Below, piece by piece: positions 5,457 to 61,317 of a DNA stretch of 64,000 bases. Each line of letters opens with the position of its first letter. The stretch's first letter is position 1. The translations under genes were made by a program, and so were the position numbers. This stretch comes from Bacteroidota bacterium (GTDB lineage Bacteria > Bacteroidota > Bacteroidia > UKL13-3): contig CANJUD010000003.1 in assembly GCA_947477885.1 (NCBI GenBank), positions 124,001-188,000 of the forward strand, written 5' to 3'. The notes under the pieces were generated by a model. It saw only the letters and a list, made by a program, of their open reading frames with translations. It made no database searches and had not been told where the DNA came from.

Positions 5457-7721
5457 ATGAAAAAAATACTCCCTCTAGCAATACTAATTTGTTTTGTTTG
5501 CCAAGCATATTCTCAAATAAAATTGTATCCCACACAGCCAGATATTTTCATAAATTCTAAAACGAATAATTACTATCGACATCCATTTACTGGAGGAATA
5601 ACTGCACCACAGTTTGCCACTATTGATGCCAATTTTGATGGACGCAAAGATTTGGTTATGTATGATAGAGTTGGGGCTAACCTAGCAGTGTATGCCGATA
5701 CTGCAAAAAATGGTGCTCCCCTGTGGGTATATGATGCGTCTCTTTCTGCAAAATTCCCTAAAATCAATAATTGGTTTAGGATGGTAGATTATGACCGAGA
5801 CGGAGATTTGGATATTTTTACCAATCAGTATTCCGATATCATAGTATACGATAATAAATCGAAAAATGGGGAATTGATTTTTGAAAAAAAGCCCGACTCG
5901 TTATATACTTTTCTCGATTCTATTGTATTTGGATTTTCTACCATTAATCTACCCTGTTTTACTATTATGTATCCTGAGGTAACAGACATAGATAATGATG
6001 GAGACTATGATATAATAGTTACAGATTTATCAGGCAGTTATTTAACCATGTATCAGAATGTGCAAGTGGAGCGGAAATTACCGAAAGATAGTTTGATGTA
6101 TTACTATGCTGATGATTGTTACGCAGGATTTTCTTTGCCAGCGGGCGATAATAAAGTAATACTTGGAATGTCGTGTCATAAATTTTATGAACGAAATGCG
6201 CATGCAGGCACCTGCATAACAGCCTATGATTTCGATAATGATGGCGATAAAGATTTGTTATTGGGCGATGCTTCTTTATCGGAAGTGTTATATGTTAAGA
6301 ATGGTAAAAAAGACTATAGTTGGCCTTATGATACGGCTATTGGACAAGATACCATATATCTCCCCAATGAAGTTGCAGGAGGTGCTCGGGCTTTTACATT
6401 TCCAGCTTCAATGCTGGTGGATGTGGATGGTGACGATACACTAGATTTAATAGTAGCATCCAATGACGAAAAAGTTAACGAAGACATAAACAATATCCAA
6501 TTTTTTAAAAATACTGGCAGTAATGAATTACCCGTATTCAAATACCAAACAAATAGCTTTTTTCAAGAGCAAACTATTGATGAGGGCCATATAAACAACC
6601 CTGTGTTTTTTGATGTAAATGGAGATGCATTATTGGACATAATTGTGGGTACGGATGGCAACAATCTCATTAATCAAGATACAACTTCTGTGCTAAAATA
6701 TTATAGAAATAGAGGTACTAACAACAAACCAGAATATATATTAGAAGACAGTAATTGGTTAAATATGCGAAGTCAAAAATTGGCTTGGCCTCATCCTGCA
6801 TTTGGTGATGTAGATGGTGATAATATGCCTGATTTAATTGTTGGTCATACAAAAGGTAAAATATCATGGTGGAAAAATACTGGTAGTGCAACCTTACCAA
6901 TTTTTACTTTTCAAAATGATTCATTTGCACGCATCAACATGCGCACAACTATTGCTCCAGCGGTGGGAGATGTAGATGGCGATGGTGATAATGATTTACT
7001 GATCGGTAGATACAACGGAGAACTAAGCTATTATAGCAATAATAATAATGTATATACATTAATAACAGATACTTTTGGTAACATCAATGTATCAGATAGT
7101 TTTTTTGATTATACCTGTTATTGTTGGATGATGATGCATAACGGAATGGCAACACCTGTATTATATGATTTTGATAAAAATGGCAAATTAGATTTGATGG
7201 CTGGCAGTTATAAAGGAAGTTTGAGGTTATATATGGATGCATATAAATATATAAATACACTAGCACAAGAAACAGATAGCTTCCAGTATAATTTTGTGAT
7301 AGATACATTTGAAAATACAAGTTATCGTACTTATATATCACCCGCAGTAGCTTTTCTTGATGGCGATTCCTTGCCAGATGTTCTTGTGGGCACACAGCGT
7401 GGTGGATTATATTTTTGGGGCTCACAAAAGGTTCCGCAGTTCAAATCAATCATCAAAAATATTAATAACCCTAGCGAACACCTAGCCTTTGAAATATACC
7501 CCAATCCCACGCATGGATTAATTAATATTGTTTTGCCAAACGAGAATGGAAATATTCAGATATTATTAATGGATATTGCGGGAAAAACCATTTTGAGTAG
7601 TAAAATAAAATCGGGAAATTTTATAACCATTGATATGCAAAATCAACCAATGGGTATATATATATTGAAAGTAGAAAACGAAAATGGGGTAACAGGTTAC
7701 AAGAAAATTGTGAAAGATTAA
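5457..7721 (+). CDS. VCBS/FG-GAP repeat protein with T9SS type A sorting domain
   Basis: This is a 754-residue secreted protein. Residues 1-19 form a signal peptide (KKILPLAILICFVCQAYSQ). The body is a series of calcium-loop repeats of the integrin alpha/VCBS type with acidic motifs such as DYDRDGDLD, DIDNDGDYD, DFDNDGDKD, DVDGDNMPD and DVDGDGDND. These repeats usually fold into a beta-propeller that binds Ca2+. The last 80 or so residues are a T9SS sorting domain, starting FEIYPNPTHG and ending GYKKIVKD, so the protein is expected to be exported by the type IX system and kept at or released from the surface. The ligand is unknown. Its last 4 bases overlap the end of the convergent SprT-like gene. 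Confidence 0.88.
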   Translation: MKKILPLAILICFVCQAYSQIKLYPTQPDIFINSKTNNYYRHPFTGGITAPQFATIDANFDGRKDLVMYDRVGANLAVYADTAKNGAPLWVYDASLSAKFPKINNWFRMVDYDRDGDLDIFTNQYSDIIVYDNKSKNGELIFEKKPDSLYTFLDSIVFGFSTINLPCFTIMYPEVTDIDNDGDYDIIVTDLSGSYLTMYQNVQVERKLPKDSLMYYYADDCYAGFSLPAGDNKVILGMSCHKFYERNAHAGTCITAYDFDNDGDKDLLLGDASLSEVLYVKNGKKDYSWPYDTAIGQDTIYLPNEVAGGARAFTFPASMLVDVDGDDTLDLIVASNDEKVNEDINNIQFFKNTGSNELPVFKYQTNSFFQEQTIDEGHINNPVFFDVNGDALLDIIVGTDGNNLINQDTTSVLKYYRNRGTNNKPEYILEDSNWLNMRSQKLAWPHPAFGDVDGDNMPDLIVGHTKGKISWWKNTGSATLPIFTFQNDSFARINMRTTIAPAVGDVDGDGDNDLLIGRYNGELSYYSNNNNVYTLITDTFGNINVSDSFFDYTCYCWMMMHNGMATPVLYDFDKNGKLDLMAGSYKGSLRLYMDAYKYINTLAQETDSFQYNFVIDTFENTSYRTYISPAVAFLDGDSLPDVLVGTQRGGLYFWGSQKVPQFKSIIKNINNPSEHLAFEIYPNPTHGLINIVLPNENGNIQILLMDIAGKTILSSKIKSGNFITIDMQNQPMGIYILKVENENGVTGYKKIVKD

Positions 7722-31237: not shown

Positions 31238-32452
31238 TCAGCCCATCAATTTCTTCAGTGTTGCCACATCAGGCAAGGCATTCTTATATTTCTTAGGCAA
31301 TTCAGTGCTGGTTTTATAAGTTGCAACTCCCATAGCTTTGTTAAAGTCTCTAAAAGAAAATTCAACTATTTTATTGTTTTTTTCTCTGCACAAAATAATT
31401 CCAATTGAAGGTAACTCATGTGCTTGTTTTATACTCTCGTCCAAAGCAGAAAGATAGAAATTCATTTTGCCAACATACTCAGGTTTAAACTTCCCTTTTT
31501 TCAAATCGAATGCTACCAAACATTGTAGTTTTCTATTATAAAATAATAGGTCAGCAAAGCATTCTTCATCATCCACCATCATTCGGTATTGGTTGCCAAT
31601 AAAAGCAAAATCAGCACCCAGCGACATGAGAAACTTTTTAATGTTACGCACTATCTCGTTTTCAATTAACCGTTCATCTTCTTCGCCTGGGTCTTCAATA
31701 TTTATAAAATCGAGCAAGTATTCATCCTTAAAACTTTGCAGTGCTTTTGCCCTTAAACTTTCATTAGTTATTGCTGCTGAAAAATTATTGGGCATGGTGC
31801 CTTTCTTCTTGAATAACTTACTTTTTAAATGGTGTTTTAAAGTAGCGACTGACCAAAACTCAGAAGCAATTTTACCAATATAAAACATGCGTTCGTCTAT
31901 GCTTTTCGTTTTCGGAAGTAACTCTATATGATGCGTAAAACTTACTAGAAAAAAATCAGAGGCTAATTGGTCCGTCACTGACGGACTAATTGGAATATTA
32001 GATGATTTTCGAGACCTTGAATTGGGCTTAATCGTCTTATTTTTTGCCCCTTGCAATTCGTCCGACGGTGTCGGACTAATTGTAAAAATTGACAATTTTT
32101 GAGGTGCAAAATTGGGCTTAATTTTCTTATTATTAGAGCTTTGTAATTGGTCCGTCGGTGACGGACTAATTGTAAAATAGGGGCACCATTCTTCATAAAA
32201 AGATTTCATCCTTTTGATATTCGTTGCCGAAAACCCTTTCAAGCCTGGAAGCTCCAACTGTAAATCATCCGATAATTGCTCCAATACTTTATCCCCCCAT
32301 TTCCCAATTTTTATTTTTTCATTTATCACTTTCCCTACATTAAAATATAGAGTAATGAGTTCGCGATTGGCTAAAGTAGCGGCCTTATAACGGCTAGCGA
32401 GTATCGCAGATTTTAACTGTTTAATTGTTTCGGTATATACTTTTAGTTGCAT
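31238..32452 (-). CDS. DUF1016/YhcG-type PDDEXK nuclease domain protein with inserted 30-residue repeats
   Basis: The N-terminal DUF1016 domain (about 1-95) shows NRELITLYFNVGKVI and LPGLKGFSATNIKRMKSFYEEW. The C-terminal domain (about 180-400) holds the PD-(D/E)XK-like core: DFAFIGNQYRMMVDDEECFADLLFYN, then VAFDLKKGKFKPEY, where D-x-K is the catalytic pattern. YhcG-like proteins are often found near restriction systems; their role is not firmly known. Between the two domains, where relatives run directly into the HH-ELL-K motif, there is an insert at about 95-165 made of 30-residue repeats (ISPSPTDQLQ, ISPTPSDELQ, ISPSVTDQLA). Length is 404 residues. It is divergent from a broken PD-(D/E)XK-like gene. 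Confidence 0.85.
   Translation of the reverse strand: MQLKVYTETIKQLKSAILASRYKAATLANRELITLYFNVGKVINEKIKIGKWGDKVLEQLSDDLQLELPGLKGFSATNIKRMKSFYEEWCPYFTISPSPTDQLQSSNNKKIKPNFAPQKLSIFTISPTPSDELQGAKNKTIKPNSRSRKSSNIPISPSVTDQLASDFFLVSFTHHIELLPKTKSIDERMFYIGKIASEFWSVATLKHHLKSKLFKKKGTMPNNFSAAITNESLRAKALQSFKDEYLLDFINIEDPGEEDERLIENEIVRNIKKFLMSLGADFAFIGNQYRMMVDDEECFADLLFYNRKLQCLVAFDLKKGKFKPEYVGKMNFYLSALDESIKQAHELPSIGIILCREKNNKIVEFSFRDFNKAMGVATYKTSTELPKKYKNALPDVATLKKLMG
31963..32173. repeat. Three 90-base repeats with 7-bp hairpins inside the DUF1016 gene
   Basis: Hairpins GTCCGTC-ACT-GACGGAC (31970-31986), GTCCGAC-GGT-GTCGGAC (32060-32076) and GTCCGTC-GGT-GACGGAC (32150-32166) are spaced exactly 90 bases apart, so the reading frame is kept. 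AATT-containing flanks extend each stem. In the middle copy one base pair is reversed on both arms. The sequence between the hairpins is also repeated, but less exactly. Confidence 0.9.
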
Positions 32453-32625: not shown

Positions 32626-33617
32626 ATGAGTTTAACTTCTTTTATTTCCGACAAAAATTTCCAAGAACTTCGGGATAAGTTTAAGACCGTTTTCCCGAGA
32701 CCACAAATACAATTGGCTGGTGAAATGTTCGCACCTCCATTAACAGATAGTCATTCATTAGTAGGGCAGGCATTTGATTATATTTTGCGATTTACACTTG
32801 AGCATCGTCATAAATTAAAAATTAAATCTTGAGACGATTGGGTTGCAGACAGTTCTTATCTATTTATTGAAAGAACGCTTAAAGAGACAGATTCTAAAAC
32901 TATAAAAATTGGTTACCGACGAGACATAGAAAGAGATTGCAAAGAATTTCTTGTGATGTTGAACACCGAGTATTCAGAAGCAAAACAAAATCACCAAAAT
33001 ATATTTTGGATGGGATATTAACAGACTCTTTGATAAAATCAGCCTTGTTCTTAGCTCGACTTGGTATTAATTATCGTGTAGGAATAATTGACCAAAATCT
33101 CGGGAATGAAAATGAAATGAATATAAAAGATATTAGACAATTAATGGCTGTTTTAAAAGATGAATACTTCCAAGTTGATAATCATTGCATTATTAATCCT
33201 ACATTTGGTGATGGTTCACAACTAGTTCAAGGTGCAGATGGAGACCTTATAATTGACGACACTTTGATTGACATAAAGGTTACTAAAAATCTTGCAGTTG
33301 AAAGAATCCATTTAAATCAAACAATTGGTTATTATATTTTTTCGCTTATTGGTGGTGTAAATGATGACAAAGATTTTAAACCTATAAAAAACATTGGACT
33401 TTATTTCGCTAGACATGGCGTGCTATGGAAAATATCACTTTCCGTCCTCGCAGACGAAAAAACAATCTTAGAATTTAAAGATTGGTTTATTGATTACGCT
33501 GACAAAAAACTTTGGGGTGGGCGTCTTGAGGAAATAAAAAAAAGATATAATGAAAAAGAAGTAGAAGGAAAAACAAAAAAACCAGAGAAAAAGTCGAAAA
33601 AAATTGATAAACAGTAG
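32626..33617 (+). pseudogene. PD-(D/E)XK-like nuclease family protein, disrupted by one stop and one frameshift
   Basis: Codons from ATG 32626 encode 68 residues (starting MSLTSFISDKNFQEL) and stop at TGA 32830-32832. The same frame continues with protein-like sequence (DDWVADSSYLFIERTLKE, then EFLVMLNTEYSEAKQNH) to about 32993. There the frame shifts; restoring one C in the CC at 32994-32995 joins NH to PKYILDGILTDSLIKSALF and an open frame to 33617. The total of 992 bases is one short of a multiple of three, as expected for a single-base deletion. The C-terminal part holds GADGDLIIDDTLIDIKVTK, an acidic...D-x-K arrangement typical of PD-(D/E)XK nucleases, and ends Lys-rich. I do not recognise the exact family; restriction-like function is inference. 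Only two lesions suggest recent decay or sequencing error. Confidence 0.75.
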
Positions 33618-60757: not shown

Positions 60758-60764
60758 ATTAGTG

Positions 60765-61317
60765 GTCAGTAGTCAGTGGTCAGTAGTCAGTGGTCAGTAG
60801 TCAGTGGTCAGTAGTCAGTAGTCAGTGGTCAGTAGTCAGTAGTCAGTAGTCAGTAGTCAGTAGTCAGTGGTCAGTAGTCAGTGGTCAGTAGTCAGTAGTC
60901 AGTAGTCAGTAGTCAGTGGTCAGTGGTCAGTAGTCAGTAGTCAGTGGTCAGTGGTCAGTAGTCAGTGGTCAGTAGTCAGTGGTCAGTAGTCAGTAGTCAG
61001 TGGTCAGTAGTCAGTGGTCAGTAGTCAGTGGTCAGTAGTCAGTGGTCAGTAGTCAGTGGTCAGTAGTCAGTGGTCAGTGGTCAGTGGTCAGTAGTCAGTG
61101 GTCAGTAGTCAGTAGTCAGTAGTCAGTGGTCAGTGGTCAGTGGTCAGTAGTCAGTGGTCAGTAGTCAGTAGTCAGTAGTCAGTGGTCAGTAGTCAGTAGT
61201 CAGTAGTCAGTAGTCAGTGGTCAGTGGTCAGTAGTCAGTGGTCAGTAGTCAGTGGTCAGTAGTCAGTAGTCAGTGGTCAGTAGTCAGTGGTCAGTGGTCA
61301 GTGGTCAGTGGTCAGTG
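60765..61317 (+). repeat. Perfect array of 79 heptamers GTCAGTR
   Basis: The 553 bases are exactly 79 consecutive 7-base units with no insertion or deletion. The first six bases are always GTCAGT and the seventh is A (43 units) or G (36 units). The order is irregular, with alternating AG stretches and runs up to five A or five G. It fills almost the whole gap between the TPR-secG unit and the T9SS gene at 61360. It has stops in all frames, so it is not coding. Right after it four inverted-sense units (ACTGATT, ACTGGCT, ACTGATT, ACTGTTT; 61334-61361) run into the stop codon of the next gene. Confidence 0.97.

Follow-up and report, generated by a model that had tools for sequence, protein, structure and literature searches.

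A covarying palindrome at a fixed coding position in DUF1016/YhcG genes

Within the window (the whole 64-kb stretch of DNA that was analysed) a gene of the DUF1016/YhcG family carries three short hairpins, and in the middle one a base change on the left arm is matched by a change of its partner on the right arm. The question that this locus raises is whether the pairing itself is kept inside a protein-coding sequence and, if so, at the level of the protein, the RNA or the DNA. The features on which the analysis was built are the following.

31238-32452, minus strand: DUF1016/YhcG gene, an open reading frame of 404 aa (Pfam PF06250, E 2.2e-53; PF17761, E 1.8e-29; PADLOC PDC-S02, E 3.7e-123), encoding in order a helical DUF1016_N domain, a palindrome-bearing linker and a YhcG_C PD-(D/E)XK nuclease
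31271-31738, minus strand: YhcG_C nuclease domain, residues 239-394 (Pfam PF06250)
31965-32178: tandem array of a diverged 90-nt unit in direct repeat, with a palindrome at the start of each, encoding the linker (about residues 98-158)
31965-31991: palindrome unit 1, core 31970-31986 GTCCGTC-ACT-GACGGAC; the third unit on the coding strand, encoding ISPSVTDQL
32055-32081: palindrome unit 2, the compensated copy, core 32060-32076 GTCCGAC-GGT-GTCGGAC, with A at 32065 and T at 32071; encoding ISPTPSDEL
32145-32171: palindrome unit 3, core 32150-32166 GTCCGTC-GGT-GACGGAC; the first unit on the coding strand, encoding ISPSPTDQL

As the original prediction had stated, three hairpins with 7-bp stems lie at 31970, 32060 and 32150. 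The pattern GTCCGWC-NNN-GWCGGAC matches three times in the window, at a spacing of exactly 90 and against a chance expectation of 0.01, and the genome search that the prediction had proposed returned, from the whole 3.1-Mb genome, exact matches only at these three known copies, with two more places differing by 2 bases. The outer units have T at 31975/32155 and A at 31981/32161; in the middle one these are replaced by A (32065) and T (32071), and pairing is kept. Both changes are indeed non-synonymous and swap Ser and Thr (S-P-S-P-T-D-Q to S-P-T-P-S-D-E; on the coding, minus strand the outer copies read S-P-S-P/V-T-D-Q-L and the middle one S-P-T-P-S-D-E-L). Each unit is a 27-nt interrupted inverted repeat in which the 7-bp stem is followed by a single mismatch, A-C or A-G as read on the coding strand, and then by AATT outer arms, and single-strand folding of the units as DNA gave z values of -4.2 to -5.7. 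The 90-nt unit is a diverged duplication whose first two copies are 71% identical, and conservation within it is highest in the palindrome. One compensated pair in three tandem copies is weak evidence by itself, and the middle copy may have arisen by recombination with a different existing palindrome; such an event would leave unexplained the family-wide pattern described below.

Judged by its profile matches, the host gene is an ordinary member of the DUF1016/YhcG family (PF17761 and PF06250), scoring 103 bits for DUF1016_N (cut-off 32.8) and 180.8 bits for YhcG_C (cut-off 32.5), both above the curated Pfam cut-offs. It also matched the profile of the PADLOC defence candidate PDC-S02, a putative defence role. 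The linker that bears the palindromes is predicted to be disordered, with AlphaFold2 pLDDT below 50 at residues 98-122 and 124-158. A search by sequence found no relatives of the protein in the PDB, and when a compact homologue was compared by structure, its nuclease domain came nearest in the PDB to that of the EndoMS/NucS mismatch endonucleases (5gke, 2vld; Foldseek E 1e-4), a match confined to that domain, with a TM score of 0.26 by query length. Kosinski et al. grouped YhcG with Holliday-junction-resolvase-like nucleases (PMC1189080). Among the neighbours of DUF1016 in our gene sample were BREX pglX, Shedu, a type I-D CRISPR gene and type I restriction subunits. In the window, the gene adjoining the DUF1016 gene (about 32626-33617, plus strand) is seemingly split into two reading frames, and the longer piece (226 aa) had no Pfam match.

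Next, we considered the family as a whole. The sample comprised 195 distinct DUF1016 genes from Bacteroidota genomes, plasmid and phage records of Cyanobacteriota, Pseudomonadota, Deinococcota, Chlamydiota and Actinomycetota, viral contigs (27 loci found with the family alignment) and E. coli; over half of the genes are from Bacteroidota, and phylogenetic non-independence was handled by clustering only. An equivalent palindrome was present in the corresponding protein loop of 180 of the 195 genes (~92%), spanning at least six phyla and including E. coli K-12 yhcG, and about 8% had no unit at all. The element has inverted arms of about 8-19 bp each around a 3-nt centre and lies in the loop just ahead of a conserved [IL]-x-W-[SG]-H segment; the distance from its centre forward to the conserved Trp is most commonly exactly 6 codons. 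Under a slightly wider definition, a strict unit stood in the canonical phase in 180 of the 195 genes, whereas 7 and 11 genes had one in the two remaining phases, and the central base fell on codon position 1 in 125 of the 134 perfect units with 8-bp arms. Unit density was 6.2 per 10 kb in DUF1016 genes and 1.0 per 10 kb in flanking DNA. We regard the existence of an inverted repeat fixed in position and phase in DUF1016 coding DNA as highly probable, with the three 90-nt units of the window being a tandem expansion of it. Full-text literature searches returned no mention of an intragenic palindrome in DUF1016/YhcG.

A scan of genome contigs showed that orthologues carry other arms at the same linker: ATTTATCAATTGGTTCGAC-AGT-GTCGAACCAATTGATAAAT in Olivibacter, TTTCTAATTCGGCAGTT-GGC-AACTGCCGAATTAGAAA in Flavobacterium, AAATCGTCAGTT-GCC-AACTGACGATTT in an unclassified bacterium and AATTGTCTCCGC-ACT-GCGGAGACAATT at the homologous site of a second DUF1016 gene of the window's own genome. 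E. coli K-12 yhcG has AAAGATTTGGCAGAC-GCT-GTCTGCCAAATCTTT, with 15-bp arms, together with two shorter units; the three lie at about 6130-6240 of locus L138. A relative from another family had one such palindrome, in its DUF1016 gene, and no other match by that pattern.

The alignment of DUF1016 genes from relatives, with a test for covariation, had been named in the original prediction as the way to check it. In 155 genes we set the centre by protein alignment alone, 6 codons before the conserved Trp and with the DNA not consulted. The eight arm pairs at positions 2-9 from this centre were complementary in 68-83% of the genes, compared with 29-45% when partners were shuffled (z 10-16), and the z values were 3.6-7.5 when only 61 cluster representatives were used. 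All four Watson-Crick pair types occurred at most arm positions, and the pair first flagged in the window is T-A, A-T and G-C among near relatives. Arm sequences differ highly between subfamilies with complementarity retained, and when the centre is set from the protein the number of paired positions has two modes, most genes having 7-8 of 8 or 0-4. To see this against the coding constraint, synonymous codons were shuffled within each gene, which gave 7.0 perfect units (maximum 11) in place of the 134 observed. This rules out protein constraint as the cause of the palindrome and shows that the protein does not require it; with the covariation across the 155 genes, it strongly supports the claim that the fold is maintained and not the protein alone.

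How the symmetry is kept could be followed between close relatives. Among genes 80-90% identical the arms diverged by 0.171 and the genes by 0.153 (a further pair of values was 0.255 vs 0.277), and two-sided arm changes numbered 17 against 7 one-sided changes, with 3.5 two-sided changes expected under independence. Since the arms diverge about as fast as the gene as a whole and most of their changes are two-sided, it is the complementarity that is kept and not the arm sequence. Moreover, within groups sharing the same arms 11 of 64 loop pairs were reverse-complementary, twice the shuffled rate (8.7%), a signature of inverted centres, which template switching in a hairpin would produce. It is well supported that the maintained property is self-complementarity of the DNA, of a structural type, and likewise that arm-to-arm copying contributes to the symmetry. 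For coding DNA, covariation of this sort, in which pairing and not sequence is preserved at a single position and phase, is very unusual.

Our preferred reading, to which we give a probability of roughly 40%, is that the palindrome acts in cis as a DNA structure, most likely recognised by the nuclease that the gene itself encodes, a function suggested by its retention. The two arms would form a hairpin or cruciform, or a two-fold site, and the encoded DUF1016 nuclease would recognise it, for self-recognition or autoregulation. When one arm mutated, the other would be copied over it by template switching, restoring symmetry, and selection would keep at least one good unit per gene. Still more tentatively, the palindrome may be a self-recognition element of a defence-candidate family, in which the nuclease recognises the cis structure, arm copying and selection preserve it, and it can be duplicated within or beside the gene. 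We counted in favour of the functional reading the fixed place and phase, the fact that the palindrome is not a by-product of the protein, its restriction to the gene, its occurrence at about one unit per gene, and the nearness of the encoded nuclease domain to EndoMS/NucS. The one-unit-per-gene pattern is partly definitional, as insertions between unit and Trp shift the unit "upstream". Most E. coli genomes encode a member of the DUF1016/YhcG nuclease family, which is spread over at least six bacterial phyla. It consists of suspected phage-defence nucleases to which no function is assigned, and the palindrome points at what the family does.

The main rival to the functional reading is a neutral one, doubtful to our mind and yet a serious possibility: an ancestral palindrome sits in a tolerant loop, template switching (quasipalindrome correction) copies arm onto arm, and the sequence drifts with no function. 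The bimodal pairing and the enriched inverted centres also fit such pure mutational conversion, as do the excess of two-sided over one-sided changes at modest divergence, the concentration of differences between E. coli yhcG alleles in the palindromes and the symmetric variation of a copy outside the coding frame near yhcG. The same process has been proposed for Nematomorpha mitochondrial genes, in which perfect coding palindromes show concerted evolution of their arms (PMC6649704). By itself, however, it leaves unexplained the retention at one position and phase across phyla, the restriction to one gene family and the second-loop units in genes that have lost or lack the first-loop one, and decayed copies beside a paralogue carry one uncorrected mismatch each. 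If the palindrome is neutral, it offers a clear natural archive of template switching within coding sequence, which thousands of E. coli genomes would allow one to measure.

A selected hairpin in the DUF1016 mRNA, for instance a protein-binding site or a translational regulator, is improbable in our judgement. The stems with 3-nt centres are stable (folded as DNA) and lie in a transcribed region, and the original prediction had left open whether the fold belongs to DNA or RNA. If selection acted on an RNA stem, G-U would be tolerated far better on the coding strand than A-C; among units with at least 7 of 8 pairs, the mismatches were 41 G-U and 49 A-C, and 11 and 24 when one unit per cluster was taken. 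As G-T is thus favoured no more than A-C, the counts favour symmetry at the level of the DNA over an mRNA hairpin, despite a slight lean to G-U in the noisier protein-anchored set (about 78 vs 51 A-C, summed over k=2-9). An early hand count over 106 genes had suggested an excess of G-U, which the larger cleaned set did not bear out. Also against an RNA role are the symmetric, covarying copy outside the gene in E. coli and the lack of any Rfam family above threshold, the only match being a sub-threshold miRNA one (33.5 bits, gathering 86).

Equally improbable is a sequence-specific operator bound by a homodimer, of DUF1016 itself or of a neighbour, with a specificity that coevolves with the arms. 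It would account for the two-fold symmetry, for the arms shared among copies within one gene and for the copy of the internal palindrome, identical at 18 of 19 positions, that one genome has ~50 bp ahead of the DUF1016 reading frame (locus L048). On the other hand, the arms evolve at the gene-average rate and not slower, the presence of all pair types at most positions would need an unusually fast change of specificity, and copies outside the gene are rare. The upstream copy at L048 (about 919-941) stands in an operator-like position, and no other DUF1016 remnant was noticed around it.

A dispersed mobile palindrome inserting into genes, REP-like or like the Rickettsia palindromic elements, is very improbable and largely refuted: units are duplicated and in a few cases lie in a second loop or beside the gene, but the arms differ between homologous sites and no copies outside DUF1016 neighbourhoods were seen in the window's genome, its relatives, 296 Bacteroidota genomes (one arm type) or all complete E. 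coli. In the 296 genomes, a degenerate pattern for that arm type gave 13 matches whose arms are truly symmetric, each of them within a DUF1016 gene or a recognisable remnant of one, except for a single match about 50 bp upstream of such a gene. The 33-mer of the E. coli palindrome gave two matches per genome, the number expected when one palindrome matches itself on both strands, and hence there is no second copy elsewhere. Y1 (REP-type) transposases had 4 matches in the window's genome, none of them tied to a palindrome.

The nearest precedents are the Nematomorpha palindromes and the Rickettsia palindromic elements. The former resemble the DUF1016 palindrome as inverted repeats inside protein-coding genes, with both arms coding and evolving in concert, but they are numerous and long, with arms of up to 142 bp, are distributed over mitochondrial genes and in many cases belong to a single species (PMC6649704), whereas ours is one short unit whose position and phase are fixed within a single bacterial gene family. 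The latter, as later papers summarise them, are selfish elements of about 100-150 nt in many genes (Ogata 2000, 2002, cited in PMC4316617 and PMC6649704); on that description they too are palindromes in bacterial reading frames whose protein still functions, and differ from the DUF1016 palindrome, which has no dispersed copies, has arms unconserved between sites and is found in one gene family. REP and Rickettsia elements stand in many copies at unrelated sites, which was not the case here. Quasipalindrome correction by template switching (van Noort 2003, as cited in PMC6060812) would, as described there, yield the compensated arm changes and inverted centres that we observed; being a general mutation process, it predicts no single gene family, position or phase across phyla.

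Copy number and placement vary within the family. The number of units in yhcG varies among E. coli alleles from one to three, and the alleles differ by compensated changes (CGCC/GGCG vs GTGC/GCAC; CGCC/GGCG vs CTCC/GGAG), and it is in the palindromes that allele differences are concentrated. E. coli K-12 has an extra palindrome of the yhcG type 30 bp past the yhcG stop, between yhcG and nanQ (L138, about 6970-7000), which could double as a terminator. Between strains this unit is compensated and its centre inverted, CTGCAGAC-AGT-GTCTGCAG and CTCCAGAC-ACT-GTCTGGAG. In seven genes (L085, L121, L082, L151, L083, L114, L221) a unit lies in a second loop, at a distance of exactly 55 codons downstream from the conserved Trp. 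In genes with a unit at both sites the two have similar arms, and in 3 of the 7 the first-loop unit is absent. Among genes of the Trp type, a unit elsewhere was found in 52 of the 63 without a canonical unit and in 15 of the 92 with one.

Remnants of the gene were also observed. At L231 (about 1390-1600) and L232 (minus strand), DUF1016 remnants consisting almost only of four tandem palindrome units sit between genes that, by eye from the translation, are putative type I restriction M and S subunits. Decayed DUF1016 fragments lie downstream of a paralogue in the window's own genome (L015, about 2270-2370, contig C1); their two palindromes have one uncompensated mismatch each, and few decayed copies were seen overall.

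Finally, breaks in E. coli alignments close to the palindrome had raised the possibility of module swapping there. Over 195 proteins the N- and C-terminal parts have correlated identities (0.77) and only 4 pairs are strongly discordant, which speaks against it, and the breaks that we examined were changes in unit number, a truncation, an IS1 insertion and a divergent N-terminal allele. Some E. coli strains have a yhcG that is interrupted in the palindrome or next to it: in F9792 it is truncated at the right arm (L158, about 1560-1600), and strain Res13-Lact-EB12-05 has the IS1 insertion (L154, about 1480-1510). Elsewhere in the window, positions 60761-61316 hold an array of ~79 copies of the 7-bp unit AGTAGTC (90% matches).
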